This document shows, piece by piece, positions 14,542-38,118 of a stretch of 44,205 nt of DNA (the first letter of the stretch is position 1; every line of letters starts with the position of its first letter). Both the position numbers and the translations under genes were made by a program. The notes beneath the pieces were generated by a model. That model did not search any database and was not told the DNA's origin. It saw nothing but the letters and a program-made list of their open reading frames with translations. Origin of the DNA: Candidatus Latescibacter sp. (GTDB lineage Bacteria; Latescibacterota; Latescibacteria; Latescibacterales; Latescibacteraceae); assembly GCA_030692375.1 (NCBI GenBank), contig JAUYCD010000017.1, positions 1 to 44,205 of the forward strand. The letters are read 5' to 3'.

Positions 14542-16197
14542 CCCGGATTATTCATAAATTTTTTTTTGCTGCCTGAGAATTGTGAAAATGGCCATGTATT
14601 AAACTTTCAAAATGGTGTTTCGGTCACCTTGAAGTGTGATTTACAAGAAACACAAGAACGCGGATGATTGATACATTAAGGTATACCTTTTTTTAGGTAA
14701 AGTGATCCCTTGAATGAAACGAGAACTGTAATTTACATGCCTGACACATTTTCGGTTACATCTGCATTACGATTTTGTTGCACATGGTGACGAATACATT
14801 TTTCAGGGGGAAGGAAGACGGGAAGATGAAATGAAGCTTGGTTTTCATTTCCCGGACTTCGACCCCGATTTTGAGTAAGCGCAACCGTATGGTATCAAAC
14901 TGGGCATTGGCGAATTCGGTGCCGGAAAGGGCTTTTTCTCTGAGCGTGTGGAGAATGACATAGGCTGCGCTATGGAGCATGAGACGGAAGCTGTTAGCCA
15001 GGAAACTGTGGCAGGATGTCCGGCCGCTTTTAAGGGCGAGCTTATGATCCTTGATAAAATTCTCCATCTGGCCGCGGCCACAGTACACCGTTTCATAGAT
15101 GAATGATGGCAGTGAGCTTTCCAGGCTGGTGACGATAAAGCGGATGTTGTCGCCCTGGGCGGAGACCTCAGCCATGACAATTACCCGGAGATCCCGATGC
15201 CATGTACTGGCTTGATAGCGCATCTGCCTGAAGGTGCGGGCTTTTGTACCTGATGCCTTGTACTCACGGCGAGCTGCCTCAAGCGCGACTTGTGCACGCT
15301 TTTTGAGAATTGAGGTACATGTCAATCCGAGAACATACAGAACAGCATGGGAGTCGCACCAAGCGTATAGTTCGGGTGTGGCAAAGTGAGAATCGCCGCG
15401 GATGAGGATGCCAACCTTTGGCCATGCCGCTCGAATGCGTTTTACAACCCGCTTGATGATTGCACAGGTCTCCTTGCCGCTGGGCCGTCTGCCGGGTCGA
15501 AGAATACTGGTAATCAGGTTGCCGCTTTGCCCCTCAAAGATGAAAAGAGGCTGATAGCAGTACTCATCGTAGTAACCGTTGAACAAACTCAGTTGCTGCG
15601 CCCCGTGTGTGGGATCATCCGTATCATCAATGTCGAGAATGATCGCTTTCGGTTCTGTATCGTACGAGGCGATAAACAGATCCACCAGTACATTGGCAAT
15701 ACGATAGATATCTCTTGGTGTCATGGCGTTCTCAAACCGTGATATGGTCGGCTGGCTTGCCAGATCACCCTCGGACGGTAAACGATTGCACGCAGCCTTG
15801 AAACCGGGATCGGTTCTCAGGTCATCAGCATCATTGGCATCTTCATAGCCGCAGACTATCTGCAGAATACGCTGTTTAAGGAGCGTTTTATTATCATGAA
15901 GCACATAACTCTGATGGCGGAAATCCGTAATGACTTCCGCAAGCCGGTCGATAATACCAATACTGTCTGTTATCTCTCTCAATGCAAGAACTCCTCCATC
16001 GGAGCTAACATCACCGCCGGTAAAATCCGCTGTCACTTTTTTGCCGGAAATCATTTTGAATCTAAGCGAAAGTTGGGTATCTTCTCTCATGGCAGGCTCA
16101 ACTCATTTGTATTGTGTTTGTTCGTCGTTATTTGTCTAACTACAATATAATACAATATATTAGTTGATGCACTGCCTTTTTTTATGAATAATCCGGG
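14542..16197. mobile_element. IS1380-family insertion sequence
   Basis: A 1656 bp element with perfect 17-bp terminal inverted repeats, CCCGGATTATTCATAAA at 14542-14558 and its complement at 16181-16197. It contains one transposase gene. The flanking tetranucleotides are CTAA on the left and CTAT on the right, not a clean target duplication. The missing 5' half of the neighbouring gene is not found on the far side, so the element probably took part in a deletion. Confidence 0.9.
14756..16090 (-). CDS. IS1380-family transposase
   Basis: A 444-residue DDE transposase, intact. The catalytic regions visible are LDIDDTDDPTHG at about 149-160, IRGDSHFATPELY at about 225, and the C-terminal GRGQMENFIKDHK carrying the Glu. 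The N-terminal TADFTGGDVSSDGGVLALREI is the family signature. It moves the element by cut-and-paste chemistry on the 17-bp inverted repeats. Length and frame are complete, so the element may still be active. Confidence 0.95.
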   Translation of the reverse strand: MREDTQLSLRFKMISGKKVTADFTGGDVSSDGGVLALREITDSIGIIDRLAEVITDFRHQSYVLHDNKTLLKQRILQIVCGYEDANDADDLRTDPGFKAACNRLPSEGDLASQPTISRFENAMTPRDIYRIANVLVDLFIASYDTEPKAIILDIDDTDDPTHGAQQLSLFNGYYDEYCYQPLFIFEGQSGNLITSILRPGRRPSGKETCAIIKRVVKRIRAAWPKVGILIRGDSHFATPELYAWCDSHAVLYVLGLTCTSILKKRAQVALEAARREYKASGTKARTFRQMRYQASTWHRDLRVIVMAEVSAQGDNIRFIVTSLESSLPSFIYETVYCGRGQMENFIKDHKLALKSGRTSCHSFLANSFRLMLHSAAYVILHTLREKALSGTEFANAQFDTIRLRLLKIGVEVREMKTKLHFIFPSSFPLKNVFVTMCNKIVMQM

Positions 16198-21151: not shown

Positions 21152-21859
21152 ATGAAAAAGTTAACCCTTGTATTCAGTTTCATGCTGTCAGTGACGCTCT
21201 GCACTCTGTTCCATTCGAACGCCTACAGCCAGCCTCCGGCCGGAGGACAGGGCCAGAGAGCCCCTATATCCATCGACCAGCAGATAGATCAGCTCGACAA
21301 AGCGGTCTCCCTCACCCCGGACCAGAAGAAAAAAATACGGGCCATTTATGAGGAAAACGAGAAAAATCGGACTCAGCCGCCCGCACAGTCCTCGGGCGAC
21401 AGGCCGAATGCACGGCGCGACCGGTTGAACCAGTCACAGCAGATGGGGGGCCGGGGGCAGGCGCTGAACCAGGAGATAGAAAAAGTCCTCACCCCTGCCC
21501 AGGTGAAAAAACTCGCCGCATTCAGAAACCAGTCCGGCATTGACAGACGGATTGAGCAGTTGAGCAGCCTGAAACTGACCGATGATCAGAAGAAAAAGCT
21601 ACGCACCGTCTTCGAAAATCAAAATGCAAGAATGCAGAAAACGCGAGAGCAGAGGCAGAGCCAGGGTCAGGATCAGAGCCAGGATCAACAGGCCATGATG
21701 GAAACATTCCGCAAGATGCAGGAAGAGAACAACAATGAAATAAAGAAGGTTCTGACCGCAGCGCAGGCCAAGCAATATGATGACATGCAGCAGCAGATGA
21801 TGAACAGGAGAGGCCAGGGCGGAGGACAGGGAAGAGGTGGCAGGGGTCAGCAAAACTAA
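21152..21859 (+). CDS. Spy/LTXXQ-like periplasmic protein
   Basis: A 235-residue protein with a signal peptide ending near SNAYSQ (about residue 27). It has two helical repeats of the LTxxQ kind, SLTPDQKKKIRAIYEEN (about 53-69) and KLTDDQKKKLRTVFENQ (about 142-158), each followed by a VLTPAQ or VLTAAQ box. The rest is rich in Gln, Gly and Arg, with a GQGGGQGRGGRGQQ tail. Spy/CpxP-type proteins are periplasmic chaperones or stress sensors. It opens the plus-strand transport cluster, 37 bases before the ABC ATPase, and may sense or protect the envelope during export. The Gly-rich tail resembles the Gly-rich insertions of the large permease two genes on. Confidence 0.75.
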   Translation: MKKLTLVFSFMLSVTLCTLFHSNAYSQPPAGGQGQRAPISIDQQIDQLDKAVSLTPDQKKKIRAIYEENEKNRTQPPAQSSGDRPNARRDRLNQSQQMGGRGQALNQEIEKVLTPAQVKKLAAFRNQSGIDRRIEQLSSLKLTDDQKKKLRTVFENQNARMQKTREQRQSQGQDQSQDQQAMMETFRKMQEENNNEIKKVLTAAQAKQYDDMQQQMMNRRGQGGGQGRGGRGQQN

Positions 21860-21896: not shown

Positions 21897-22817
21897 ATGA
21901 ATATAAGCATCAAGAACCTGAGTAAAGTGTACAAACAGGGAACCAAAGCGCTGAAAGATGTGAATCTGGAGATCGGAAACGGAATGTTCGGTCTTCTGGG
22001 GCCGAACGGCGCAGGAAAAACCACACTGATGCGTATCCTGGTCACCTTGATGGAGCCTACAGACGGGATGGTAACCTTCAACGGTCTTGACCTTAAAAAA
22101 GATCGCGGAACAATTCGCTCCATGCTCGGATATCTTCCGCAGGAGTTTCGCATGTTTTCACGTTTGAAGGCTTGGGAGTTTCTCGACTACTCGGCGCAGC
22201 TCGCCGGAATTTCCCGTAACGGCAACCGTCGTGAGGTGGTAAGCAAAATGCTCGAATCGGTGGGACTTTATGAGGCGAGAGACCGTCAGGCCAACAAGCT
22301 CTCCGGCGGAATGAAACGGCGTCTCGGCATTGCGCAGGCGCTGATCGGCAATCCGAAGGTGCTGGTGGTGGATGAGCCCACAATCGGGCTGGACCCCGAA
22401 GAGCGTATACGGTTCCGCAACCTGCTTGCCGACATGAGCCGTGAGGAAAAAATCATTATTCTTTCCACCCATATCGTTGGGGATATTTCCAGCACCTGCG
22501 AGCATATGGCCATGCTCGACGAGGGGGAATTGGTTTACCACGGCGCTCCCGAGAAACTCCTGGAGGAGGCGAGGGGGCATGTCTGGCTGATCGATGCTGT
22601 AGATGCCGATGTTGAAAAAATCAAGAAGAAGTACTCGGTCATTGCGTCGGTTCCATCCAGGCACGGTCTTGAAGTCCAGGTGGTAGGTGATCATCTGGAA
22701 GGTTTTACCGGCAGAGAAATCGAACCGAATCTTGAACACGCCTATGTGTATTTTTTGGAAAAGAGAGCCTCTGAGGCTGCTGAATATGCTCTTTTGGAAG
22801 AGGATTGGACCTCATGA
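21897..22817 (+). CDS. ABC transporter ATP-binding protein
   Basis: A 306-residue ATPase, start at MNISIKNLSK (21897); a longer frame from 21837 overlaps the previous gene. Walker A is GPNGAGKTT at about 36-44, the Q-loop YLPQEF at about 84-89, the signature LSGGMKRR, Walker B VLVVDEPTIGLDP, and the H-loop STHIVGD. This is the CcmA/NatA-type ATPase used by ABC-2 exporters. The C-terminal ~80 residues form a small extra domain. Its stop overlaps the permease start (ATGA, 22814-22817), so the two should be made together. It is a close paralogue of the ATPase domain fused to the second RND pump at 32552-37312. Confidence 0.93.
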   Translation: MNISIKNLSKVYKQGTKALKDVNLEIGNGMFGLLGPNGAGKTTLMRILVTLMEPTDGMVTFNGLDLKKDRGTIRSMLGYLPQEFRMFSRLKAWEFLDYSAQLAGISRNGNRREVVSKMLESVGLYEARDRQANKLSGGMKRRLGIAQALIGNPKVLVVDEPTIGLDPEERIRFRNLLADMSREEKIIILSTHIVGDISSTCEHMAMLDEGELVYHGAPEKLLEEARGHVWLIDAVDADVEKIKKKYSVIASVPSRHGLEVQVVGDHLEGFTGREIEPNLEHAYVYFLEKRASEAAEYALLEEDWTS

Positions 22818-25800
22818 TATCGATAAAAAAAATCTTAACGGTGGCCGTATTTGAGGCCAAAACGCTCTTCCGGAGCTGGTTCTTCAGGATATTCTCCGTG
22901 CTTGCCCTGTTCATCCTCGTTATCATGGATATAGCTCTTTTCGCCCTTCCCCAAAGCTCCTGGATGAACCGTGGGCTGGAAGCTTCCATACCCTATATGA
23001 ACCTGGTGCTTTTGAATGTGGTGCAGGCCATCATTGCAGTATTCATGGCATCGGAATTCCTCAAATACGATTACAAGCTGGATACCACAGAAGCCATATA
23101 TGCCCGCTCGATGACCAACGCCGATTATGTTCTCGGTAAAACGTTCGGCGTGCTTATGGTATTCATAGTTTTGAATATTCTCGTCCTCCTGATTTCATTT
23201 ATTTTCAATTTTTTCTTTACTGAAATTCCGGTGCTGCCGGCTGTTTATCTCTATTATCCGCTGTTGATAAGCCTTCCGACCCTTATTTTCATTTTCGGGC
23301 TTTCGTTTGTGTTCATGGTTACCATACGCAACCAGGCGGTAACCTTCATCATCATCCTGGGATATATAGCCAGCACCCTCTTTTTCCTGAGCGGCAGATT
23401 CCATCATATATTCGATTACATGTCCAATACTGTTCCGCTCATGTATTCGGGTATAGTCGGTTTCGGAGACATTTCCACCATCCTTATCCACCGTGGAATT
23501 TATCTCAGTCTTGGGATAGGATTCATCTTCGCCTCCGTGGTTCTCATGAAAAGGCTTTCCCAATCAAGAGCCATGACGCAAGTGTCTTTGGTCTCCTCCA
23601 TCCTGTTCATCTGCTGTGGATTCTACCTCGGATACATTTATATCCAGCGGCTTTCGGATGGAGTTAAGCTGCGGGAGAATATGCGGGCGCTTAACAGCCG
23701 GATAATTAAAAACCCCTCCATATCCATGTCCGCCTGTGCGCTCTCTCTTGCCCACCTGGGAAAAGAGATCGAAGCAAATGCGGCTCTCACTTTCATTAAT
23801 AAAACCGAGGGACCGATCTCAGAATACCAGTTCAGCCTCAATCCGGACTTAAAAGTCCTGAGCGTAAACCGTGGGGGACAAGACCTGCAGTATGATCGGA
23901 CCTTACACATTATAACCATAAAGCCCGCTTCCCCTCTGGCACCGGGCGCTCTCGATTCGCTGACCATATCCTATCGCGGGAAAATCAACGAGGATGCGGC
24001 CTATTCTGAGATCGATGAAAATACCCGTGAGGCAGGCTATCGATTCTGGGTTTATAATATTGACAAACGATATGGATTTTTCACTCCGAGCTATGTTCTC
24101 CTCACTGCGGAGAATCTCTGGTATCCGGTGGCCGGTGTTCCGTATGGATCCGGCTATCCTATACTGAAAGGCAAGGACTTTGTAAAATTTACGCTCCGTG
24201 TAAAAACGGTTCCCGGTCTGACTGTTATCTCCCAGGGCAAAGAATCCAAACCCGCTCCGGGAGTGTTCGAGTTCAAACCAGAGGCTGCCCTTTCCCAGAT
24301 TTCCCTGGTAATAGGGAACTACGAAAAACGCTCCGTTACCGCGCAGGGAATAGAGTACAATCTCTATATTGCGCCCGGACATGATTATTTTTCGCAGTAT
24401 TTCAAGGCGCTCAAGACCAAGCTGCCGGAGCTGATCGACGCCAATATGACCGATTTCGAGCGGAAACTGGATATCAGCTATCCTTTTGCCCGTCTCTCCC
24501 TTGTTGAGGTACCCATCCAGTTCTATGCCTACCCCCGCATCTGGAGCACTGCTCAGGAAACAGTGCAGCCGGAGCAGGTGTTTATCCCCGAAAAAGGGGT
24601 TACCCTCCGCGCCGCCGATTTTAAGCGCTCATCCTATTTTATGAAACAAGGCGGTGGTAGAGGTGGCGGTGGCGGTGGCGGCATGGGTGGCGGTGGAGGC
24701 GGCGGCGGTAGAGGCGGCGGCAGCGGACAGACCATGACCGACGAGGAAAACCAGAGCAACCTGTTCAACAGGTTTATCCAGACGACTTTTGCAGGGAGCG
24801 GTCCGGATAACCGGATGATGCGGCAGGTAATCTCCCAGTTCACTTCCGGGAGGAACCTAGATCTACAGCGTATGGCGTTTTCCGCCGGGATGGGTCTGGT
24901 CAATGCCCCGGATTACGGCCTGTTTCCCGAGTTTTACTCTTATGCGAACCATTTTCATTCCGAAGAGTGGCCGATACTGAACATGGCCATTGAAAACTAC
25001 TTTAAAGCACGCACTTCTCAAAGTTCTTCCGGCTTCCGATCATTCATGGGAGGAGCAAGCACAGATGATAATGCGAACACTGCCCTGCAGAAACAGAACC
25101 TGAAGGAGATTCTCGCCGACCCCACGAAGAAGGATATCGTGCAGGATGTTCTGAGCAGCAAGAGCAGCTACCTCTTTTCACTCCTTGAAAGCCGGGCGGG
25201 AAAAGAAGGATTCAATGCTTTCCTCTCTGATTTTCTCTACAAGAACCAGTTTCGTGACGCCGAAACCGAAGAATTGCTTAAGGCCCTGGATGAGAAATTC
25301 AAATTTGAGCTGAAACCCTACCTGGATGCCTGGTACAACCAAAAAGGACTGCCTGCTTTTATCGTCGGAGAGATGAAATGCTATGAGGTAATTGAAAGCA
25401 GCATGACCCGTTACCAGGTTATCTTCTCCGTATCCAATCCGGAGCCGGCGGAGGGGCTCATGTCGGTCTCTTTCATGGTGGGCGGCCAGCGCGGCGACCG
25501 TCAGCAGATGATGGGAATCGGAGGGGGCGCCAGCAGCAACCCTACATCCTTTATCGATTTGAAGGGGAAAGAAACCAAGGAAATCGGAATTCTCCTTGAT
25601 TCCGCTCCACGGATGGCGACGATAAAAACGTTTATCTCCCAGAATCTTCCCTCTTCGTTCAGTCGGAATTTCGGCAAACCGGAAAAAAATCCGAATATTA
25701 TTCCTTACGAGGGAGCAAAGATTCTCGATAAACCGCTGAGTTTTGCCGAGACGGGAGAAATAATCGTTGATGATGAAGATCCCGGTTTTCAGACAGTTTC

Positions 25801-26341
25801 CCTGGAAAAAGAATCGTTTCTCAAACGGCTGCTCGTGCGGAATAAAGATGACGAAAAGGGATATGCACCCATGCGGTTCTTCAGACCGCCGCTGAACTGG
25901 CGGCACACCGTACAGGGAGAATATTACGGCTTATATAAACACACTGCTTACTATATAAAATCCGGAGACGGCAAAAAGAAGGCAATCTGGAAAACTCAGA
26001 TACCGGAAACCGGAAACTACAGCGTTTACATGTACAACTCTCCGTCCCGAGGCGGAATGATGCAGAGAGGAGGAGGACGGGTGGTGGTGGTGGGAGGTGG
26101 CGGCGGCGGAAGGCAGCAACAGCAGCAGAAACCTTCGGATACTACAGAGTATCATTATTTCGTTCATCATGACGACGGAGTTGATGAAATTGAGTTTGAA
26201 GGCTCCCAATCCCCCGAGGGCTGGAACCTGCTCGGCACATTCCATATTACAGCCGGTCAGACCGAAGTGGAACTGACCAATAAATCAAAAGGTCCGGTTG
26301 TGGTTGCAGATGCAGTGAAATGGGTGAAACAGGGTGGGTAA
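22814..26341 (+). CDS. ABC-2 permease fused to M1-like (no HExxH) and golvesin-like domains
   Basis: A 1175-residue protein, start at the ATGA overlap (MISIKKIL). The N-terminal ~280 residues have about seven membrane segments of an ABC-2 permease. Residues about 300-870 are an extracytoplasmic region like the M1-aminopeptidase domains fused to such permeases (LSLVEVPIQFYAYPRIW, TAQETVQPEQVFIPEKG), but no HExxH zinc site exists, so it is probably not a peptidase. A poly-Gly segment is at 613-637, with a second in VVVVGGGGGG near the end. The last ~150 residues (from FFRPPLNWRH through YHYFVHHDDG to VVVADAVKWV) match the golvesin C-terminal/xanthan-lyase-associated domain, a beta-sandwich of exported proteins. 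It probably forms the membrane part of an exporter with the preceding ATPase. Confidence 0.85.
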   Translation: MISIKKILTVAVFEAKTLFRSWFFRIFSVLALFILVIMDIALFALPQSSWMNRGLEASIPYMNLVLLNVVQAIIAVFMASEFLKYDYKLDTTEAIYARSMTNADYVLGKTFGVLMVFIVLNILVLLISFIFNFFFTEIPVLPAVYLYYPLLISLPTLIFIFGLSFVFMVTIRNQAVTFIIILGYIASTLFFLSGRFHHIFDYMSNTVPLMYSGIVGFGDISTILIHRGIYLSLGIGFIFASVVLMKRLSQSRAMTQVSLVSSILFICCGFYLGYIYIQRLSDGVKLRENMRALNSRIIKNPSISMSACALSLAHLGKEIEANAALTFINKTEGPISEYQFSLNPDLKVLSVNRGGQDLQYDRTLHIITIKPASPLAPGALDSLTISYRGKINEDAAYSEIDENTREAGYRFWVYNIDKRYGFFTPSYVLLTAENLWYPVAGVPYGSGYPILKGKDFVKFTLRVKTVPGLTVISQGKESKPAPGVFEFKPEAALSQISLVIGNYEKRSVTAQGIEYNLYIAPGHDYFSQYFKALKTKLPELIDANMTDFERKLDISYPFARLSLVEVPIQFYAYPRIWSTAQETVQPEQVFIPEKGVTLRAADFKRSSYFMKQGGGRGGGGGGGMGGGGGGGGRGGGSGQTMTDEENQSNLFNRFIQTTFAGSGPDNRMMRQVISQFTSGRNLDLQRMAFSAGMGLVNAPDYGLFPEFYSYANHFHSEEWPILNMAIENYFKARTSQSSSGFRSFMGGASTDDNANTALQKQNLKEILADPTKKDIVQDVLSSKSSYLFSLLESRAGKEGFNAFLSDFLYKNQFRDAETEELLKALDEKFKFELKPYLDAWYNQKGLPAFIVGEMKCYEVIESSMTRYQVIFSVSNPEPAEGLMSVSFMVGGQRGDRQQMMGIGGGASSNPTSFIDLKGKETKEIGILLDSAPRMATIKTFISQNLPSSFSRNFGKPEKNPNIIPYEGAKILDKPLSFAETGEIIVDDEDPGFQTVSLEKESFLKRLLVRNKDDEKGYAPMRFFRPPLNWRHTVQGEYYGLYKHTAYYIKSGDGKKKAIWKTQIPETGNYSVYMYNSPSRGGMMQRGGGRVVVVGGGGGGRQQQQQKPSDTTEYHYFVHHDDGVDEIEFEGSQSPEGWNLLGTFHITAGQTEVELTNKSKGPVVVADAVKWVKQGG
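24651..24724 (+). repeat. GGC/GGT-rich low-complexity tract
   Basis: An imperfect run of GGC and GGT codons encodes about 20 Gly interrupted by Arg, Met and Ser within the permease gene. A shorter one is at 26065-26110, followed by a run of Gln codons. Such tracts are prone to slippage and length change. Confidence 0.8.
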
Positions 26342-26389: not shown

Positions 26390-27886
26390 ATGATGGAACG
26401 GAAGACCATGTACAAAATTTTATCCGTGAAAGCAGCGATGGGGCTGGTATTTCTTTTATGCTGGCCGGGATTTGCGACCGCGCAGCAGGTATTGACGCTT
26501 GAAAAAGCCACTGATATTGCCATGTCCAAAAGCCCCACGATTCAACATTCCAAGATGAGTCTGGAGAGAAGCGAAGAATCGTTGAACATCCAGAAACTGG
26601 CTTTGAAATCCCAATTCAGCTTGAGGATCAACCCTTACGGCCAGACCAACGACCGCTCGTTCGATTCGAGAGATGCGGCCTATTACACGAACTGGAATAA
26701 ATCGTCTTCCGGCTCCTTCAACATTACCCAGCCTCTGAAATGGACAGACGGCACCTTCACGATAAACGACCAGTTGGGCTATCAAAAGGCATACAGCGAC
26801 AGAAGTAATTTAACAACAAGTTATTACAATAATTCCGTCTCTTTCAGCCTCTCACAGCCGCTTTTTACCTATAACCGCACCCTTTTGAGCCTTAAGCAAC
26901 TGGAGCTGAATCTGGAAAACACAAAGCTCGGTTTTGCCTTACAGATGCTTTCACTGGAACAGAATATTGCCACAAACTTCTATAATCTCTACGAAAGTAA
27001 AGCGAGCCTGGATATCGCTGTCGATGAGCTCAAGAACCAGCAAATGAGCTACGAGATCATCAAGGGCAAGGTGGATGCCGGTCTTTCGGCCAATGAGGAG
27101 CTCTACCAGGCGGAATTGAATATGTTATCGAGTACAGCTTCCCTGGAAAACCGTAAGGTATCTCTTTTAAACTCCTATGAAACATTCAAAAGACTCATCG
27201 GGCTTTCCCTCACCGATTCTATTACAGTTGAAGCAAATATTACATTTCAACAGGTGGATGTGAACCTTCAGAAAGCAATCGACAACGCCCTGAAAAACCG
27301 TATGGAACTCCGTCAGCGCGCTATCAGCCTCTCGAACCTCCAGGATGATCTGATACGCACCGCCGCTCAGAACGAGTTCAAGGGGAGCATGAACCTTTCC
27401 CTTGGCGTCAAAGGGATCGATAGTGATTTAACTGATATATATAAAACACCTACGAATACTGTGGTAGCCGGCATTTCGTTCGATATACCCATCTGGGACT
27501 GGGGACAACAAAAGTCGAGGATGAATGTGTCAAAGATCGCCATCAAGGATGCACAACTGTCCGCCGAGGAAGAAAAGACCAATATGGTCATCGCCATCAC
27601 GCAGGCATACCGCAACATGGGCAACCTGGTCAGCCAGATCGAGATTGCCCGTCAGAACCTCCAGTTAGCCCAGCGCACGTATGACATCAACCTGGAGCGT
27701 TACAAATACGGAGATCTTACCAGCATGGACCTGAATCTTTACCAGAGCCAGCTCTCCCAGAAAAGGACAAGCTTAACTGCTTCTCAAATTGATTACAAGC
27801 AGGCCCTGCTCAACCTGAAGATTATCACCCTCTGGGATTTCGAAAAGAACCAGCCAGTGGTGCCCATGCAGACGCTCGAAAAGTAA
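26390..27886 (+). CDS. TolC-family outer membrane channel
   Basis: A 498-residue protein with a signal peptide ending near PGFATAQQ (about residue 31). Two OEP-type halves follow, each rich in long coiled-coil helices: LTLEKATDIAMSKSPTIQ and SLEQNIATNFYNLYESKASL in the first, NALKNRMELRQRAISLSNLQ and QIEIARQNLQLAQRTYDINL in the second. The GDLTSMDLNLYQSQL segment is a typical TolC element. It forms a trimeric tunnel through the outer membrane. It lies 48 bases after the permease and is followed by adaptor and RND genes, so it should be the exit duct for the whole cluster. Confidence 0.93.
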   Translation: MMERKTMYKILSVKAAMGLVFLLCWPGFATAQQVLTLEKATDIAMSKSPTIQHSKMSLERSEESLNIQKLALKSQFSLRINPYGQTNDRSFDSRDAAYYTNWNKSSSGSFNITQPLKWTDGTFTINDQLGYQKAYSDRSNLTTSYYNNSVSFSLSQPLFTYNRTLLSLKQLELNLENTKLGFALQMLSLEQNIATNFYNLYESKASLDIAVDELKNQQMSYEIIKGKVDAGLSANEELYQAELNMLSSTASLENRKVSLLNSYETFKRLIGLSLTDSITVEANITFQQVDVNLQKAIDNALKNRMELRQRAISLSNLQDDLIRTAAQNEFKGSMNLSLGVKGIDSDLTDIYKTPTNTVVAGISFDIPIWDWGQQKSRMNVSKIAIKDAQLSAEEEKTNMVIAITQAYRNMGNLVSQIEIARQNLQLAQRTYDINLERYKYGDLTSMDLNLYQSQLSQKRTSLTASQIDYKQALLNLKIITLWDFEKNQPVVPMQTLEK

Positions 27887-28006: not shown

Positions 28007-28114
28007 ACCTCACCCGGCCTTCGGCCACCCTCTCCTAATTAGGAGAGGATAATGACAAGTCGCGTAATGAGTTACCTCCTCTCCTGACTAGGAGAGGGGG
28101 ACAAGGGGTGAGGT
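28007..28114. repeat. MITE-like palindrome with ACCTCACCC ends
   Basis: ACCTCACCC at 28007 is matched by GGGGTGAGGT ending at 28114. Inner hairpins are CTCTCCTAATTAGGAGAG and CTCTCCTGACTAGGAGAG. An ATG inside it (28108) would give a false longer start for the adaptor gene. Confidence 0.8.
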
Positions 28115-28221
28115 TTAAAACACCAGAAAATAATGTAAAAATTACTTTTTGCCGGATCTTTTCAATAAAAATACGCAAAGAAATAAATCATACATCATTC
28201 ATATTTCAGAAGGAGCGCAGA

Positions 28222-29271
28222 GTGAGAGCGGAATTAATTCTGGTGATCATCGTTGCCTTTCCCCTGGCATGCAGCCAACCGCAAAGCCAGGCAGATCTTG
28301 ACATCACCGCTCCGGTGAGTGTGGAAGAGATCAAGTACAAACCAATTGAGGAATTCATCACCACCACAGGGACTGTCAATGCCACAAAATTGTACGATTT
28401 GAAGACGGAGCAGGCGGGGTATTTCCGTCTGGCGATCAATCCCGGCACCTCAAGACCTTATATTATCGGTGATCAGGTAAAAAAGGATTCAGTACTCGTT
28501 TACCTCGATAATCCCGAAGTGGAAAACAGTATCAAAATCGATTCGCAGAAGATTGGCCTTGATCTGGCCCTGCGGGAGTATGAAAAGCAGCAGTCCCTCT
28601 TTGAAAAGGGGGGAGTGACCCAGCGTGAGCTCATAACTGCCCAGCGCTCAGCTATGGATGCCAAGTACGGCTATGAAAACTCCCTCATTCAGCTCTCCAG
28701 AATGAAGGTCCATTTTCCGTTCGACGGAGTAATAGTTGACCTGACCTATTACACTCCTGGCATCAAGGTTTCATCGGGCGCAGCGATTGCCTCCATCATG
28801 AATTACAGCAAGCTTAACATGGATATCAGCCTTTCCGCCAAGGAACTGGGCATAATAAAGAAAAACCAGCCGGGGCGGATAACCAATTATACCATTCCCG
28901 ATAAAATTCTAACCGGGAGAATCACCCAGGTTTCTCCGGCTCTCGATCCCACCACCCGGACATTCAAGGCGTCATTGGATATTGACAATCCCAGCCTGAT
29001 CCTGAAACCCGGCATGTTTGTCAAAGTGGACATCATTGTGGCTCACAAGGACAGCGCCATTGTGCTCAACAAGGATATAATCATGACCAGGCGGCAGAAC
29101 AAGAGTGTGTTCGTGGTTGACAGGGGCCTTGCTGTGGAGCGCCCCATTACCATCGGCCTGCAGAATCCTACTAAGGTGGAGGTGGTAAGCGGGCTGAAGG
29201 TGGATGACCGCCTGGTGGTCAAGGGTTTTGAAACCCTGAGAGACCGCGCAAAGGTAAAGATAGTGAAATAG
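28222..29271 (+). CDS. RND efflux periplasmic adaptor lipoprotein
   Basis: A 349-residue membrane-fusion protein with a GTG start at 28222. It is chosen because AGAAGGAG lies 6 bases upstream and because the product then begins with a perfect lipoprotein signal, VIIVAFPLAC, Cys17. An in-frame ATG at 28108 lies inside a repeat and is rejected. Family parts are the lipoyl/hairpin region (QKIGLDLALREYEKQQSLFEKGGVTQRELITAQ), the beta-barrel entry MKVHFPFDGVIVDLTYYTPG, and the C-terminal RITQVSPALDPTTRTFKA. It links an RND pump to the TolC channel from the inner-membrane side. It follows the TolC gene after a gap occupied by two repeats. Confidence 0.93.
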   Translation: MRAELILVIIVAFPLACSQPQSQADLDITAPVSVEEIKYKPIEEFITTTGTVNATKLYDLKTEQAGYFRLAINPGTSRPYIIGDQVKKDSVLVYLDNPEVENSIKIDSQKIGLDLALREYEKQQSLFEKGGVTQRELITAQRSAMDAKYGYENSLIQLSRMKVHFPFDGVIVDLTYYTPGIKVSSGAAIASIMNYSKLNMDISLSAKELGIIKKNQPGRITNYTIPDKILTGRITQVSPALDPTTRTFKASLDIDNPSLILKPGMFVKVDIIVAHKDSAIVLNKDIIMTRRQNKSVFVVDRGLAVERPITIGLQNPTKVEVVSGLKVDDRLVVKGFETLRDRAKVKIVK

Positions 29272-29453: not shown

Positions 29454-32400
29454 ATGAAAAAATTAGCCCAGTTTGCAGTTGATTATCCGATTACCATTAC
29501 CATGGCTATCCTGGCACTCTCCCTGCTTGGGTACATCTCGTTCAGTAAGCTGGGCATGGACATTTTCCCGGACCTGAACAACCCCAGGATTTTTGTGGAA
29601 TTGAAATCGGGCGAGCGCCCCCCTGAAGAGATGGAACGTCAGTTTGTCCAGTCGATTGAATCGCAGGCCATTCGGCAGAAAGGTGTTGTCCAGGTATCCT
29701 CGGTATCACGGGTAGGTTCGGCTCAGGTTACCGTGGAATACTCCTGGAATTCCAACATGGATGAGTCGTTCCTGGACCTCCAGAAGACCCTGAAAAATTT
29801 ATCCGCGAACCAGCAGATCGATGAACTGAATATTACCCAGCATGACCCGAACGCTTCGCCTATCATTCTTCTCGGTTTTTATCACCCCGAGATCACTGAT
29901 ATGGACGAGCTGCGGAGGGTGGCGGAAAATTTTATTCAGAACGAGCTGGTTCGTCAGCAGGGTATTGCAGAAGTCAAACTTTTGGGGAAAGAGGAAAAGG
30001 AGGTAATTATTGAAACGGATGATTACCTCATGAAAGCATACGGACTTACTCCCAGCACCATAGCATCGAGAATTACGAACAATAATCGAAACGTGTCCGG
30101 CGGTTCCATAACCGAATCGGGGAGAAAGTATGTCATCAAGGGTGTGAGCGAGCTCGATTCGATCGATGACATCGGTCGTATCATTGTCGCTGAAAAGCAG
30201 CAGACTGCGGATACATCCGCTCAGGGATCGTCTGGCGCAGGTTCGGCGACTGTATCTGTTCCGGTCTTCCTGAAGGATGTTGCCACCATCAAGTTCCAGA
30301 ACAAGAAGCCTGACAACATCGTCCGGGTGAACGGTGTCCGCTGCATGGGCATCGCCGTCTACAAGGAAACGAAGTATAACACTATCAAAGCTGTTACCGA
30401 ATTTCAACACGCCCTTGTGGACTTGCGGAAAGCCCTGCCCGGTTATCAACTGACAATAATCCAGAACCAGGGTGATTTTGTTACCCAGGCGGTCAACGAG
30501 GTGCAGTCGGCGGCACTGGTAGGCATTCTGCTCTCGGTGCTGGTGCTTTTTATTTTCCTCAGGAGATTCGGCACCACCGCCATCATCAGTTTGGCCATCC
30601 CCATTTCCATAATCGCCACGTTCAATCTGATGTATTTCGATAACCTGACCATGAACATCATGACCCTCGGCGGTCTGGCGCTCGGGGCGGGCATGCTGGT
30701 GGACAACGCCATAATCGTGATGGAGAATATCTTCCGCAACATGGAAAACGGGATGCCGATCAAGGAGGCGGCGGTTGTCGGCACAGCCCAGGTGGGCGGC
30801 GCCATCAATGCCTCCACCATCACCACCGTTGTGGTTTTCCTCCCCATCGTGTATCTCCATGGGTCCGCGGGCGAACTGTTCAAGGACCAGGCGTTGACTG
30901 TATCGTTTTCACTTCTCTGTTCGCTGGCAGTGGCTATATTTGTGGTTCCCATGCTCGCCGCCCAATTTCTCAAAAGTGTGCCGCCAGGGACTAAACTGAC
31001 CTCCATCCGGTTCCTGAGATACCGTAATTTCCTCTCGCATCTTTTAGACCATCGGTGGCTGGTGATCGGGGTAACCTCAGCAATAGTTGCCGCTTCGTTC
31101 AGCCTCATCCCGGTCATCGGGAGTGAATTCATGCCCAAGCCTGAAGCGCGTGATTTTTCCATAGACATCAAGCTCCCCGAAGGAACCGAGATCAACCGTA
31201 CCGCCGACGCGGTCGAGACAATCGAAAGCGTCGTCCGCCAGACTCTCGGAGACAATATCGTGTCCATGTTCAGCGTAGCAGGCCCTTCGGAGGAAATCGG
31301 CACAAGCTCCACTTCGGTTTTTCAGGATGAAAATACCGCCACTCTCAAGTTCAGTATCAAAAAAGAGTCGAAATTGCGCACTGAATATGTGGTGTCGCAA
31401 CTGACCACGGAATTAAAAAAGCTGCCCGATGTGGAAGTAAAAGTGGCGCATGAGCAGACCGCTCTCGATGTGACTCTGGGGACGGAGTCTGCGCCAATGG
31501 CAATTGAAATACAGGGGGATGACCTCGATATCATTCAGAACCTTACCGAACAGGCGAAAGAGAAAGTCTCGGCAATCCCTGACCTCTTTAATATTACGAC
31601 CAGCTTCGACGAAGGCCGGCCGGAGATCGACTTGAAGATAGACCGGGTACGGGCCGGGGTGTTGAATGTTGGTATAGACAACCTCACCGCACGGCTAAAA
31701 GAGCGTCTCGCCGGAACCACGGCGGGCCAGTGGGAAAACGGAGGCGAGCTGCGTGATATCACGATCGAACTCCCCAAGGTCGGGATAAACGATCTTGAGG
31801 GCATCGTGATCAAGAACGGAAACCAGGATGTGTCGGTAAATGAGGTTGCCCGAGTCATAATCGGCCAGGCGCCAAAGGAAATCAACCGTAAGAACCAGGT
31901 GCGAATAGGGATGGTGACCGCACATTTGAAAAATGTCCGGCCTCTCAATCAGGTAGTGGCGGATATCCGCACCAAAATGAGCGGGATCAGCTTTCCTCAG
32001 GATTATAAATATGCAGTAACCGGCGAGGAACAGATGCGGCGTGATGCATTCCAGAACCTGAAATTTGCTTTCCTCTTGTCCCTGGTACTCATGTACATGG
32101 TGCTGGCCGCGCAGTTTGAATCATTGATTCACCCATTCACCATTCTTTTCTCCATTCCTACAGCGGTGGTCGGAACGATACTTGCCTTTTTCCTTTTGGG
32201 GAAATCCTTTAACATCATGGCTTACATAGGACTGATCATGCTGGTGGGTATTGCGGTGAATGATTCCATTATTTTGGTGGATTGCATCAACCAGGTTCGA
32301 AAAGAAGGCGCTTCTCTCCGTGAGGCAATCCTGGAAGCCGGCATGCGCCGTATCCGGCCTATCATCATGACCAGTCTCACCGCAATCCTCGGCATGCTGC

Positions 32401-32555
32401 CACTCTGCATCGACATCGGCGAGGGCGCCGCTCTGCGCTCGCCTTTGGCGATTGCCGTGGTAGGCGGGCTGTTCACCTCCACGATACTTACTCTTATTGT
32501 GATACCTTGTGTATACTATGTGCTTGACAGTTTAACGGTGAGAAATAAAACATGA
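29454..32555 (+). CDS. RND efflux pump, first
   Basis: A 1033-residue RND permease of the HAE1/MdtC-like class with twelve membrane segments and two large periplasmic loops. The N-terminus is FAVDYPITITMAILALSLLG, TM4 carries GMLVDNAIIVMEN (Asp417, then Asn418), TM10 has VGIAVNDSIILVD (Asn936-Asp937), and RIRPIIMTSLTAILGMLP follows. The AcrB Lys940 position is therefore not Lys; this is usual for the VNN/VND subclass. It exports small molecules using the proton gradient together with the adaptor and TolC-like channel upstream. Its stop overlaps the start of the second, fused RND gene (ATGA, 32552-32555), so the two are probably made as a pair, perhaps as a hetero-oligomer like MdtB/MdtC. Confidence 0.94.
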   Translation: MKKLAQFAVDYPITITMAILALSLLGYISFSKLGMDIFPDLNNPRIFVELKSGERPPEEMERQFVQSIESQAIRQKGVVQVSSVSRVGSAQVTVEYSWNSNMDESFLDLQKTLKNLSANQQIDELNITQHDPNASPIILLGFYHPEITDMDELRRVAENFIQNELVRQQGIAEVKLLGKEEKEVIIETDDYLMKAYGLTPSTIASRITNNNRNVSGGSITESGRKYVIKGVSELDSIDDIGRIIVAEKQQTADTSAQGSSGAGSATVSVPVFLKDVATIKFQNKKPDNIVRVNGVRCMGIAVYKETKYNTIKAVTEFQHALVDLRKALPGYQLTIIQNQGDFVTQAVNEVQSAALVGILLSVLVLFIFLRRFGTTAIISLAIPISIIATFNLMYFDNLTMNIMTLGGLALGAGMLVDNAIIVMENIFRNMENGMPIKEAAVVGTAQVGGAINASTITTVVVFLPIVYLHGSAGELFKDQALTVSFSLLCSLAVAIFVVPMLAAQFLKSVPPGTKLTSIRFLRYRNFLSHLLDHRWLVIGVTSAIVAASFSLIPVIGSEFMPKPEARDFSIDIKLPEGTEINRTADAVETIESVVRQTLGDNIVSMFSVAGPSEEIGTSSTSVFQDENTATLKFSIKKESKLRTEYVVSQLTTELKKLPDVEVKVAHEQTALDVTLGTESAPMAIEIQGDDLDIIQNLTEQAKEKVSAIPDLFNITTSFDEGRPEIDLKIDRVRAGVLNVGIDNLTARLKERLAGTTAGQWENGGELRDITIELPKVGINDLEGIVIKNGNQDVSVNEVARVIIGQAPKEINRKNQVRIGMVTAHLKNVRPLNQVVADIRTKMSGISFPQDYKYAVTGEEQMRRDAFQNLKFAFLLSLVLMYMVLAAQFESLIHPFTILFSIPTAVVGTILAFFLLGKSFNIMAYIGLIMLVGIAVNDSIILVDCINQVRKEGASLREAILEAGMRRIRPIIMTSLTAILGMLPLCIDIGEGAALRSPLAIAVVGGLFTSTILTLIVIPCVYYVLDSLTVRNKT

Positions 32556-35500
32556 ACGTAATTCAATGGATCATAAACCGCAAGGTTTTTGTCAGTATGT
32601 TTTTCATCGGAATAACCATGCTGGGTTATTTTTCCTACCGCCAGCTGCCGTTGGAGATCATACCTGCTTCAGAACTCCCCTACCTGATCATCTCTGTATC
32701 GGGCAGGACCGAAATGGATCCCGACTATATCGAGAAACAGGCGGTGATTCCTAAGGAAGGCGCTGCGAGCACTCTGTCAGGCATCAACTATATTGAAACC
32801 ACAATCAGTCTGAACAGCGCGCGGATAACTGTATCGTATAACGCCGATGTAAAAATCAAGTATGCGTATTTGAAGCTGGAGGAATCGGTAGCGGCTCTGA
32901 AAACAGCCCTTGCAGGTGAATTCACTATCAATGTACAAAAGGTAGATACGCAAAGCATGTCCAATACTTTCATGGGTCTTCAGGTCCGCGGAGGAGGCGG
33001 CAAGGAACGGCTCCGCGCCGTCATCGACCAGAAGATTCAGAAGGAGCTGGAAGCGATCAACGGCATTGCCCTGGTAAATATCTCCGGCGGAAGCCTGAAA
33101 TCGGTTCAGATCACCCTCAATGAGCAGGCCTGCAAAGCCTACAATGTGACATCCGGGAGAATCCGTCAGGCCATCACGCAGAACAGCCAGAGTAAAACCT
33201 ACCTGGGCTATGCCTATACCCATGATAAAAAATACGTGGTTAACCTGGTTACCGACTATACGGATGTTAGCGATCTGGAAAACATCGTGGTGAACACGAA
33301 CGGCCCCATCCTTCTGAAAGATGTGGCGGATGTTACCTTCGGGGCACAGGAAGAGACTTCCATCAGCCGGGTCAACGGCAAGGATTCAATCACCATCCAG
33401 CTCGTCCGTGATTCCCAGGCGAACCTGATCGATCTGTCTCACACTACCCGCGGGATTATCAACCGTCTCAACACCCAGCTTGCTCCGCAGGATGTGCAGA
33501 TCGTCGTTCAGACCGACTCCGCCGATGAAATGGAAAAGAATCTCAATCTCATCATCGAGCTGGCTCTTGTTGGCGGAATGATGGCCATTGTCATCCTCTG
33601 GTTGTTTCTCCGGAACTTTAAGCTGGTGGCTATCATCGCCCTGGCTATTCCCATATCCATTTTCACCGCCTTCAATTTCTTCTATGCCTTCGGGATAACC
33701 ATCAACAGCCTGACCCTGGTAGGAATCGCACTGGCAGTGGGAATGCTTCTCGACAACGGGGTGGTCGTGCTGGAGAATATCATGCGTCTCCTTGCCGCGC
33801 ACCGTGACCGAACCACCGCGGTGCTTCAGGGAACAACGGAGGTATGGCGCGCTATTGTTGCGTCGACGTTCACCACCATCGTGGTATTCATGCCCTTTAT
33901 TTTTTCTTCCGATGCAGCGATCAGACTGATTGGAAAGCAAACGGGAGTGTCGATTGTTTCAACGCTTCTCGTTTCACTCCTCGTGGCGATTTTCCTAATC
34001 CCGGCGATCACTCATTTTACCCTCCAGCGGGAGAAGGATACCCAAAAGCTGATTTTCAACAAGGTCTCCCATAAGAACCGTCTCGTCCAGATATATAAAC
34101 TCCTCCTGAAATCCGCCATGCGTTTTCCGGCGAGAACCATTTTCGGGGCGGTTACCGTTTTTCTCCTGAGCGTGCTCATCTGCTTCACCCTGAGCCTGAA
34201 TGTATCCCGTGAGGTTGAGCTGAAGCAGTTCACCCTGTACCTCACCGCACCGAAAGGCTCAACCCTCGTTATGACCGACCAGTTGACCCAGAATCTGGAA
34301 ACAAGGCTTGTGGATATCGAAGAGATACAGGACCGCATCGCCAATGTGGTCGAGGAAGAATCGACGATCTCGGTCATATTGAAAGACAATTACTCGAAAA
34401 TCAAAAAACGTTCCATAGTCGATATCAAGGCTGATATCCAGAACCGGATCAATCAGTTCCCCGCATCGGAGGTAAGTCTCTCCGAGCCTCAGGCAAGCAG
34501 CCGTTACGGCGGGGGAAGTTCTAGGTCCTCCGGACCCTCACTGGAAAAGTATCTTGGAATAGGCACCCCATCTGAAAGAATCCTGGTCAAAGGGAATGAT
34601 TTTTACATGATGCGGGCGGTCGCCGAGGATATCAGGTACCAGCTCGATAACCTGGATTCGGTGCAGTCGGTGTCGTTCAATGTGGATGACAACCGTCCGG
34701 AAGTCCACCTCCATTTTGACCGGGGGCTCATGAGCAAAGAGAACATCACTCCCTCGAATATCGCCAGCGAAGTGGCATCCATGAACAGGCAGGTCAGCTC
34801 GTCGATGAAATTCAAGCAGGGAGTGGAAGAATACAACATCGATATCAAGAACGAACCGGAAGACCCTTCGGATCCGACCAAAAAGCCTGCTGATAAAAAC
34901 GCCGACGACCTTCGGGCGCTCCTTATCCCAACTCAGTCCGGAGCTTTATATACTCTGGATCAGTTGAGCCGGATTGTGTTCGGGCAGGGACGAGCCGGAA
35001 TCAAGCGGCTGAACCAGGAAAAACAGATACAAATCACATATCGTTTCAACTCCGATGTGAATGAATCCAAACCCTATCTGGAAACTTCCCGGGGCGATGT
35101 GGATGAAGTCATCGCCAGCCTTACCCTTCCTCCGGGAGTGGCAGTGGAAGCAGTCCACACCGAGACGGATTTCAGCGAATTTTACTTCCTCATCGGAGCG
35201 GCGTTCTTTCTTATCTATATGCTCTTGGCTTCGGTGTTCGAATCGTTCACCGCTCCGGTGGTCATGATGTTCACCATACCGCTGGCGGCAATAGGCGCAC
35301 TCTGGGCGCTTATCCTCACCAACAACTCGATTCTCAACGCCAACTCCCTGATCGGATTTCTCATTCTCCTGGGGGTGGTGGTCAATAACGGCATTCTGCT
35401 GATCGATTACACCCGTATTCTCCGAAGGCGCGGGTTCACCCGCTCACGGGCGATCATGATGGCGGGTCAGGCGCGGGTGCGTCCGATTCTCATCACTGCG

Positions 35501-37312
35501 ATCGTCACCATCATCGGGATGCTCCCCCTGGCTATGGGCAAGGGCGGATATGTAGACCGTATCGGGGCGCCGTTCGCCATCACGGTTATCGGGGGACTCA
35601 GCCTGAGCACCCTCTTCACCCTGGTGTTCATCCCGACCGTCTATTCCGGTATGGAAAAGGCCCTGGAATGGCTGAAGAGCCTTCACTGGATGCTGAAAGC
35701 CCTGCAGCTTGTGGTTCTCGCTGTTGTTGCCCTCTTCATTTACACCAATGTGGACAGTCTTCTCTGGAAGTTCGCTTACTGGTTTGCCGCAGTTCTTTTG
35801 ATTCCTTCTACGCTTTATTTCATAACATCCAGCCTTAGGCAGGCCAAAACCGAGTATATCGGCCGCGATGAGTCATTGCACATCAAGCTCCAACGGATGG
35901 TCAAGATATACGATGACGACAGCCGGTTTGTGCGGGAATGGAAAAAAGGCGGCCGTATAGAGGCTGCGACCGGCGCAGCAAAGGAGTACCATACCTGGAG
36001 AGATTTCAATCATTTCCTCTGGGAAGTGCCGCTCCTGGGATTTGTAATTTACTTTGTCTATTTTTATATACAGTCTCATCTCTGGATTTTCCTTCTTTCC
36101 AACATTATATACTTCTACACGCTTTTCCTTTGGGGGATAGTCGGGAAGTACCTGGAAAACCGTGCAAAAGATACGGGAAAAGAATTATTCATGAAAATCC
36201 GTTCCGCAGGTCATGATAGCCTGCTCTGGGGACTTCCGGCGGTTTATCTTTGGGTATTCGATCAATTTGGTTTCAAGATCGCGGTGATCTGTTTGATCGC
36301 TTTTGTCTGGTATTTTGCACTCGTGATCCACACAACGGCGGAGTGGCTCCATAGGAGCGGGATCAACATCATGCGGCTCAAGGGAAGATTTGCGGGACTC
36401 AGACTTTTGTTCTACCGTTTCGTCCGCTTCGTACCCGTTATCGGAGAGAAAAAGAACCCGTTTAACGCCCTGGACGGAGTATCCATAGATATTGAAAATG
36501 GTATGTTCGGACTTCTGGGGCCTAACGGCGCCGGAAAAACAACGCTCATGCGGATTGTCTGCGGAATCTTTAATCAAACTATGGGAACCGCCTGGATCAA
36601 CGGTATAGACTTCCGTGAAAAACGGGAGGAGCTTCAGGGCCTCATCGGCTATCTCCCGCAGGAGTTCGGTACGTATGAAAATATGACCGCCTACGAATTT
36701 CTCGATTACCTGGCCATACTGAAGCGCATCTATGACCGTGACACCCGGAAGGAGCATGTTGAATACGCCCTCAAGTCAGTGCACCTTTTCGACAAGAAGG
36801 ACCAGAAGATCGGCTCATATTCGGGAGGAATGAAACAGCGCATGGGCATTGCATTGACCCTCCTGCATCTGCCGCGCATTCTCGTGGTCGATGAACCGAC
36901 AGCGGGCCTGGACCCCCGTGAGCGGATACGGTTCCGGAATCTCCTTGTGGAACTGAGCCGTGACCGGATTGTATTATTTTCCACACACATCATCGAAGAT
37001 ATTTCCAGCTCCTGCAACATGGTGGCGGTGCTCAACCGCGGAAAACTCGCCTATCTCGGCAACCCGTTCCAGATGACCGATGCGGTACGGGGGAAAGTAT
37101 GGCAGTTCCTGGTAGAGCCGGAGGCTTTCCTCGGACTCCGTGAACACCTGCGGATTGTTCACCACATGCGGTTCGAGGATAAGATAAGGGTGCGGTGCCT
37201 CGGCGAAACTCCACCCTGTCCGGGCGCTGAGGAAGTACAACCCACCATGGAAGATGCCTATCTGTGGCTTTTGGGTAAGAAGCATATTGATGCCGAAGCA
37301 AGTCCGGCATGA
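32552..37312 (+). CDS. RND efflux pump fused to six TM helices and an ABC ATPase
   Basis: One uninterrupted frame of 1586 codons. Residues 1 to about 1035 are a full RND permease (GMLLDNGVVVLEN with Asp401-Asn402 in TM4, VVVNNGILLID with Asn945-Asn946 in TM10, RVRPILITAIVTIIGMLP). Residues about 1045-1275 add six further membrane segments (LVVLAVVALFIY, WFAAVLLIPSTLYFI, LLGFVIYFVYFYI, FLLSNIIYFYTLFLW, LPAVYLWVFDQF, VICLIAFVWYFALVI). Residues about 1290-1586 are a complete ABC ATPase: Walker A GPNGAGKTT at 1323, Q-loop YLPQEF, signature YSGGMKQR at 1423, Walker B VVDEPTAGLDP with Asp1447-Glu1448, H-loop His1479. The next gene is an ABC-2 permease. The last codons and stop come from a dispersed repeat. 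I know of no characterised protein with this architecture. Confidence 0.92.
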   Translation: MNVIQWIINRKVFVSMFFIGITMLGYFSYRQLPLEIIPASELPYLIISVSGRTEMDPDYIEKQAVIPKEGAASTLSGINYIETTISLNSARITVSYNADVKIKYAYLKLEESVAALKTALAGEFTINVQKVDTQSMSNTFMGLQVRGGGGKERLRAVIDQKIQKELEAINGIALVNISGGSLKSVQITLNEQACKAYNVTSGRIRQAITQNSQSKTYLGYAYTHDKKYVVNLVTDYTDVSDLENIVVNTNGPILLKDVADVTFGAQEETSISRVNGKDSITIQLVRDSQANLIDLSHTTRGIINRLNTQLAPQDVQIVVQTDSADEMEKNLNLIIELALVGGMMAIVILWLFLRNFKLVAIIALAIPISIFTAFNFFYAFGITINSLTLVGIALAVGMLLDNGVVVLENIMRLLAAHRDRTTAVLQGTTEVWRAIVASTFTTIVVFMPFIFSSDAAIRLIGKQTGVSIVSTLLVSLLVAIFLIPAITHFTLQREKDTQKLIFNKVSHKNRLVQIYKLLLKSAMRFPARTIFGAVTVFLLSVLICFTLSLNVSREVELKQFTLYLTAPKGSTLVMTDQLTQNLETRLVDIEEIQDRIANVVEEESTISVILKDNYSKIKKRSIVDIKADIQNRINQFPASEVSLSEPQASSRYGGGSSRSSGPSLEKYLGIGTPSERILVKGNDFYMMRAVAEDIRYQLDNLDSVQSVSFNVDDNRPEVHLHFDRGLMSKENITPSNIASEVASMNRQVSSSMKFKQGVEEYNIDIKNEPEDPSDPTKKPADKNADDLRALLIPTQSGALYTLDQLSRIVFGQGRAGIKRLNQEKQIQITYRFNSDVNESKPYLETSRGDVDEVIASLTLPPGVAVEAVHTETDFSEFYFLIGAAFFLIYMLLASVFESFTAPVVMMFTIPLAAIGALWALILTNNSILNANSLIGFLILLGVVVNNGILLIDYTRILRRRGFTRSRAIMMAGQARVRPILITAIVTIIGMLPLAMGKGGYVDRIGAPFAITVIGGLSLSTLFTLVFIPTVYSGMEKALEWLKSLHWMLKALQLVVLAVVALFIYTNVDSLLWKFAYWFAAVLLIPSTLYFITSSLRQAKTEYIGRDESLHIKLQRMVKIYDDDSRFVREWKKGGRIEAATGAAKEYHTWRDFNHFLWEVPLLGFVIYFVYFYIQSHLWIFLLSNIIYFYTLFLWGIVGKYLENRAKDTGKELFMKIRSAGHDSLLWGLPAVYLWVFDQFGFKIAVICLIAFVWYFALVIHTTAEWLHRSGINIMRLKGRFAGLRLLFYRFVRFVPVIGEKKNPFNALDGVSIDIENGMFGLLGPNGAGKTTLMRIVCGIFNQTMGTAWINGIDFREKREELQGLIGYLPQEFGTYENMTAYEFLDYLAILKRIYDRDTRKEHVEYALKSVHLFDKKDQKIGSYSGGMKQRMGIALTLLHLPRILVVDEPTAGLDPRERIRFRNLLVELSRDRIVLFSTHIIEDISSSCNMVAVLNRGKLAYLGNPFQMTDAVRGKVWQFLVEPEAFLGLREHLRIVHHMRFEDKIRVRCLGETPPCPGAEEVQPTMEDAYLWLLGKKHIDAEASPA

Positions 37313-37383: not shown

Positions 37384-38118
37384 ATGGTGAAATCTATGAA
37401 TTATCGAAAACTCATCTTGAATAGCTGGAGTATTCTTTTTGGCATGGTCCGCTATAACATGAAGATCATTTTCGCGAATAAATTCATTTTCTTCCTTATT
37501 GCGGCTCTCGGAGTTTTCATCTTCGTGACTGTTATGAACGTCCTTAATACGGACAGGAACATCACGGAAGGAACTGTATTCTGGCTGCTTTTGGTGCCCG
37601 GTCTCCTGCTTGTTTTTTATCCGACCGCATTCGGCATACAGAATGATGTGGACACCCGGATGATCGAGATTCTCTTCGGTATTCCCAATTACCGTTACAA
37701 GGTGTGGATGGTAAGGCTGCTCATGATTTTTGCGATGGTGTTCACCATTCTCGTTCTTTTGAGTTTCGTAAGCTCTCTGGCACTGGCAAGCATCCCTGTG
37801 TTCGGGATGGCTGTACAGGTGATGTTCCCCATCCTGTTTTTCGGAAGCCTGGCGTTCATGTTCTCCACAGTGATAGGCAACGGCAGCGGCACAGCGGTGG
37901 TCATGATCATCCTGGGACTGGGCGTCTGGATTGCCCAAAGCGCTATCGGCAGGAGCCAGTGGAATGTTTTCCTCAATCCTTTTGTTGTACCGCAGAATGT
38001 CAACGAAATCGTCTGGAACGAGATCACTGCCAATAACCGTGTATACCTGGTTATCGGAACAGCCATGTGTATCTTGATGGGGTTATTGAACCTGCAGAAA
38101 CGGGAAAAATTTGTGTAA
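37384..38118 (+). CDS. ABC-2 type permease, second
   Basis: A 244-residue membrane protein; the start could also be the ATG at 37396 (MNYRKLIL). Six membrane segments are visible: FIFFLIAALGVFIFVTVMNV, VFWLLLVPGLLLVFYPTAFG, LLMIFAMVFTILVLLSFVSS, FPILFFGSLAFMFSTVIG, TAVVMIILGLGVWIAQS and YLVIGTAMCILMGLLNL. The amphipathic loop MIEILFGIPNYRYKVWMVRLL is typical of ABC-2 exporters. It follows the RND-ABC fusion by 71 bases and has no ATPase of its own, so the ATPase fused to the RND pump is its most likely engine. It is the last gene of the cluster. Confidence 0.85.
   Translation: MVKSMNYRKLILNSWSILFGMVRYNMKIIFANKFIFFLIAALGVFIFVTVMNVLNTDRNITEGTVFWLLLVPGLLLVFYPTAFGIQNDVDTRMIEILFGIPNYRYKVWMVRLLMIFAMVFTILVLLSFVSSLALASIPVFGMAVQVMFPILFFGSLAFMFSTVIGNGSGTAVVMIILGLGVWIAQSAIGRSQWNVFLNPFVVPQNVNEIVWNEITANNRVYLVIGTAMCILMGLLNLQKREKFV

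Follow-up and report, generated by a model that had tools for sequence, protein, structure and literature searches.

RND permeases and ABC transporters are treated as separate classes of pump with separate energy sources. What, then, is a gene that appears to encode both in a single chain, and what would its product be part of? Such a gene lies at 32552–37312 (+ strand) of the window analysed here, a stretch of 44,205 nt from Candidatus Latescibacter sp. (contig JAUYCD010000017.1). A first-pass annotation of this DNA had described one frame of 1586 codons combining a full RND permease, six extra membrane helices and a complete ABC ATPase.

An RND permease and an ABC ATPase in one frame

The frame is open from end to end, translating into 1586 aa without a stop, and is a single frame in relatives too. 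Pfam assigned residues 4–1032 to ACR_tran (E = 5e-158), a full-length two-repeat RND permease domain, and residues 1307–1451 to ABC_tran (E = 2e-27), in agreement with the two domains originally proposed. The RND part comprises residues 1–1035 (32552–35656, + strand), whereas residues 1303–1586 (36458–37309, + strand) hold the remainder of an ABC ATPase domain, identified by Pfam, by a profile of the stand-alone ABC ATPase of the same locus (ABCn) and by Foldseek matches to ABC ATPases. The motif positions given in the first-pass annotation were likewise right. On the + strand, we located the Walker A motif GPNGAGKT (residues 1323–1330; 36518–36541), the ABC signature YSGGMK (residues 1423–1428; 36818–36835), the Walker B motif ILVVDEP with its catalytic Glu (residues 1443–1449, D1447-E1448; 36878–36898) and, by motif reading, the H-loop His1479 (36986–36988); a Q-loop is also present. 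All ATPase motifs were intact in 20 out of 20 fused sequences inspected singly.

Of 60 relatives, 26 were retrieved by the linker alone (residues 1035–1302); apart from those cut off at contig ends, almost all of these had frames of 1,573–1,790 aa. With a linker profile, the fusion was detected in 31 of 64 Latescibacterota genomes (14 of the 19 high-quality ones), in 41 of 82 KSB1-group genomes and in 6 of 396 Bacteroidota genomes sampled; a joint linker alignment of both deep groups was too divergent for the contig scan, which used a one-group alignment. The recurring fusion is a single frame of about 1,560–1,630 aa in all three groups. Its junctions are conserved, and it is a genuine RND–ABC fusion. 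The genome that includes the window's 44 kb contig comprises 3.9 Mb in 273 contigs, which might raise the suspicion of an assembly or annotation artefact. However, the same fusion is present on single-contig chromosomes (OY282377.1 and OX638329.1; loci L050 and L057) and in genomes of named, non-MAG strains (loci L073, L078, L080, L083 and L086), all from other phyla, with named fusion loci including those of Imperialibacter, Fulvivirga lutimaris, Marivirga aurantiaca, Chryseotalea sanaruensis and Xanthovirga. Together with the many relatives, these loci exclude a frameshift or a contig join, leaving an artefact a vanishingly small probability. Consistent with this, the frame has no stop or frameshift near residues 1035–1290, the region to which the first-pass annotation had drawn attention as a potential break point.

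An ATPase domain interrupted by membrane helices

The six extra membrane helices held in number, as AlphaFold2 predicted six long helices in the linker, but they do not form one block, being arranged as two plus four around a beta strand at residues 1111–1120. In the AlphaFold2 model of residues 1036–1586 (22 sequences; mean pLDDT 73.9, moderate), two helices (1046–1066 and 1070–1099) are followed by this strand, by four helices (1143–1269) and by a second strand (1304–1314). From this order of elements, the chain reads as RND permease, two helices, first ATPase strand, four helices and remaining ATPase. On the + strand of the window, helices 13–14 (residues 1046–1099, also seen by hydropathy) correspond to 35687–35848, the ATPase domain's separated first strand and A-loop (residues 1111–1120) to 35882–35911, and helices 15–18 (residues 1143–1269, also backed by alignments) to 35978–36358. 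The ATPase domain is thus not contiguous: its first strand and A-loop tyrosine sit between the second and the third extra helix, and ∼200 aa with four helices separate the A-loop from Walker A.

Alignment of homologues revealed the motif I-x-[IL]-x-N-L-T-K-[IV]-Y-G at about residues 1111–1121, with K1118 and Y1120 invariant among the aligned sequences. This motif is the usual start of a stand-alone ABC ATPase, and the ABCn of the window reads NISIKNLSKVYKQG there. The ABCn profile matched many fused proteins as two collinear pieces, profile positions 2–16 near residue 1105 and positions 15/18 to 294 from ∼1290, the first piece being individually weak (E about 1–3). We scored 54 homologous fused proteins taken from the loci read, and in every one of them the strand-1 spot was the best window against ABCn positions 2–16 (9–23 bits, compared with 6–10 for the runner-up). 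The distance from this spot to Walker A was about 200–250 residues in the fused proteins (319 in one), rather than about 35. The loops that follow helices 14, 16 and 18, for which a cytoplasmic location is predicted, read as Lys/Arg-rich, and the 2 + 4 helix count would return the ATPase domain to the cytoplasm. We also considered that the six linker helices might be an ABC permease of their own, and rejected this: a PDB sequence search returned only chance-level SemiSWEET matches, and good Foldseek matches of the 1036–1586 model were restricted to the ATPase part (ABC ATPases). The insertion of four membrane helices next to the A-loop is, to our knowledge, a construction not seen before in an ABC motor.

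The first-pass annotation had also raised the prospect of homologues that are always split at this place. Instead, the fused frame is the rule, and unsplit frames far outnumber the two natural splits that we observed, both in the KSB1 group (loci L087 and L088). Each is caused by a small insert, which in one case interrupts the frame after helix 14, ahead of the ATPase strand, and in the other separates helix 16 from helix 17. A second frame restarts after the insert; the RND and ABC halves can therefore at least be encoded apart. The inserts themselves (L087:4008–4224 and L088:7049–7211) are small, repeat-like and partly palindromic, and lie in two different linker loops.

The seven-gene cassette

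The first-pass annotation had overlooked both the split of the ATPase domain and the neighbours of the fusion gene, which encode another ABC ATPase and another RND permease, two ABC-2 permeases, an adaptor and TolC. All these genes lie on the + strand, beginning with the stand-alone ATPase ABCn (21897–22817; likely start ATG at 21897), which is 42% identical to the fused ATPase. It is followed by an ABC-2 permease with a periplasmic M1-peptidase-like domain and a C-terminal Golvesin_C domain (22805–26341), a TolC-type outer membrane factor (26390–27886; Pfam OEP), a periplasmic adaptor (28108–29271; RND_mfp, TIGR01730 above cut-off) and the second RND permease, RND1 (29454–32555), which overlaps the fusion gene by 4 bases. 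Adaptor and TolC genes are thus adjacent to the RND genes. The last gene, downstream of the fusion, encodes an ABC-2 type permease (ABC2p; 37384–38118), identified by AlphaFold2/Foldseek and, in relatives, by Pfam ABC2_membrane_2. In total, ATPases, ABC permeases and RND permeases are each represented twice in the cassette.

The cassette is conserved in several bacterial phyla, and the order ABCn, ABC-2/M1 permease, TolC, adaptor, RND1, fusion, ABC2p on one strand was found in nearly all loci that were long enough. Among the 56 loci at which the fusion is complete or almost complete, ABC2p adjoins the fusion in 53 and RND1 lies directly upstream of it in 52, with an overlap of most often 4 or 8 bases. 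One Latescibacterota group has no TolC gene at this position, and at locus L097 the genes form two divergent units, one of the fusion and ABC2p and one of the remaining five. Across the 82 KSB1-group genomes, fusion and ABC-2/M1 permease were both present in 39, both absent in 37 and discordant in six (two and four; counted by hand from two tables), for which Fisher's test gave P = 4e-16, an indicative value because the genomes are related. The flanks outside the cassette were not conserved among the loci compared and gave no functional hint, and a search for plasmid carriage of the cassette found none. Just upstream, at 21152–21859, is a gene for a Spy/CpxP-like (LTXXQ) periplasmic protein, a relative of which occupies the same place in the KSB1-group locus L095 but was not seen at most other loci. 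In one genome, RND1 consists of two overlapping frames (594 and 451 aa; L052:3757–6893, on the same contig as L035), either a natural split or a sequencing error.

In phylogenetic trees, the fused ATPases formed one clade apart from ABCn (SH-aLRT 99), in a tree whose root is unsure owing to a single unrelated outgroup row on a very long branch, and the fused RND parts formed one clade apart from RND1 (SH-aLRT 100). This single grouping of each fused part would fit a fusion that originated only once and a cassette passed on as a unit. The partner permeases were assigned to the ABC-2 type by profile and fold with moderate scores, the ABC2p model matching PmtCD, NosY and ABCG in Foldseek. None of 27 M1-like domains carries the HExxH zinc motif, pointing to a structural or binding role. 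The ABC-2/M1 gene product also has long glycine-rich loops.

The nearest described parts are the MdtB2C trimer, MacAB-TolC and the ABC-2/M1 fusions. MdtABC-TolC of E. coli, which contains the mixed RND trimer MdtB2C (PMC4338810, PMC12802153), likewise combines two RND genes with one adaptor, and MdtB was the best PDB sequence match of the RND parts of both the fusion and RND1. As a precedent, MdtB2C shows that one trimer can combine different RND subunits that play different roles (PMC4338810). However, MdtABC has no ATPase, and MdtB keeps Asp407, Asp408 and the Lys of the proton relay, part of which is missing from the fusion and RND1. The ABC-driven tripartite pump MacAB-TolC (PMC5985334, PMC8277102) also brings an ABC ATPase together with an adaptor and TolC, but the MacB ATPase is fused to its own MacB-type permease and involves no RND protein, whereas here the ATPase is on the RND chain and the permeases are of the ABC-2 type. 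Fusions of ABC-2 permeases with M1 peptidases are known from TCDB family 3.A.1.145, for example Q1D520 of Myxococcus xanthus (PMC3924187). Likened by architecture rather than by direct alignment, they share with the cassette's permease an N-terminal ABC-2 part, a C-terminal M1-like part and a length of about 1200 aa; the latter differs in its place within an RND cassette, its lack of HExxH and its Golvesin_C domain. Finally, NosY and PmtCD were the best solved-structure matches of ABC2p, and NosF ranked high among those of the fused ATPase, although exporters of the NosDFY type and PmtCD have a stand-alone ATPase with an unbroken fold and no RND partner.

Possible modes of coupling

The fusion, its conservation, the intact ATPase motifs, the cassette and the split ATPase domain are evident at the level of sequence. 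The doubled set of ATPases, ABC-2 permeases and RND permeases next to an adaptor and TolC suggests one heterodimeric ABC-2 exporter on one mixed RND trimer, and the cassette suggests an envelope-spanning exporter able to draw on two energy sources. We give roughly even odds to the cassette encoding one hybrid trans-envelope exporter, in which a mixed RND pump resembling MdtB2C would carry a tethered ABC-2 exporter that feeds it substrate. RND1 and the RND part of the fusion would form the mixed trimer, docked to adaptor and TolC, while the fused ATPase domain would pair with ABCn and the two ABC-2 permeases with each other, giving a heterodimeric exporter held covalently to the RND trimer by helices 13–18. 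ATP hydrolysis would then move the substrate, amphiphilic or similar to a lipid, from the inner membrane or the cytoplasm to the periplasmic entrance of the RND trimer, which would export it via adaptor and TolC. We infer the single complex, its subunit pairing, the hand-over and the kind of substrate, as well as continued proton-gradient drive of the RND part. The hybrid exporter is favoured by the conservation of the fused frame in three groups, the intact ATPase motifs, the kept gene order with its mostly overlapping frames, the co-occurrence of fusion and M1 permease, the layout of locus L097 and the 2 + 4 helices. A tether between an ABC exporter and an RND pump, one of two roles proposed in the first-pass annotation, is well supported by the gene content of the cassette. 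The gene pairs ABCn/M1 permease and fusion/ABC2p would suit two separate homodimeric ABC exporters equally well.

We also weighed other arrangements. In AcrB, the proton relay comprises D407 and D408 in TM4 and K940 in TM10, the latter next to N941. The fusion does not carry this relay, having D-N in TM4 and N-N in TM10; among the fused proteins, 'DN' is present in 54 of 54 and 'NN' in 52 of 54. RND1 has D-N and N-D at these positions, and most RND1 copies share the changes D408→N and K940→N. With D408 and K940 missing from both RND subunits, proton drive by the AcrB relay is doubtful. This would fit an RND pump that is driven or gated by ATP, where closure of the fused, membrane-interrupted and helix-anchored ATPase acts directly on an RND transmembrane domain that has lost the usual proton relay; the four helices beside the A-loop could provide a stiff membrane anchor. 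However, the TM4 Asp equivalent to D407 is kept, and ABC2p and the M1 permease are ordinary ABC-2 partners for the ATPase. Moreover, among RND and ABC genes sampled elsewhere in the genome, the RND permease L002, which lies outside the cassette, also has D-N and N-N, so that at least one further permease shares the variant. The variant is therefore not bound to the fusion and by itself does not point to ATP drive, which weakens relay loss as a mark of it, and we consider an ATP-driven or ATP-gated RND pump unlikely.

It is also improbable, in our view, that the chain is a passive tether, in which an independent proton-driven RND pump and an ABC-2 exporter are joined only for location or stoichiometry. 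Every part is complete by itself and natural splits occur, as such a tether would allow, but an ATPase domain whose split by an intramembrane insert is conserved exceeds what a flexible tether needs, and fusions are far commoner than splits. The large periplasmic M1-like domain, without HExxH in 27 of 27 cases, could instead hint at mechanotransmission as in MacB or FtsEX, the ABC part pulling on this domain to regulate or load the pump while no substrate passes through the ABC-2 permeases. We regard this as very unlikely, given permeases that are by profile and fold of the ABC-2 rather than the MacB type.

No description of the RND–ABC fusion or of the seven-gene cassette was found in the open-access literature searched, in line with the earlier remark that no characterised example was known, although such a search cannot prove absence. 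Protein databases presumably hold the fusion sequences under generic RND names. A conserved RND–ABC chain, which nearly always comes with an adaptor and ABC permeases of its own and, in most cases, with TolC, unites two classes of pump. It offers a system, available in named and probably cultured species, for asking whether ABC export at the inner membrane and RND export across the envelope can be coupled physically and energetically. If true, an ATP-driven or ATP-gated RND pump would add a novel mode of energising RND transport, present in three bacterial groups or more. Elsewhere in the window, a frame of 444 aa (14756–16090, − strand) resembles an insertion-sequence transposase, probably IS1380-like.
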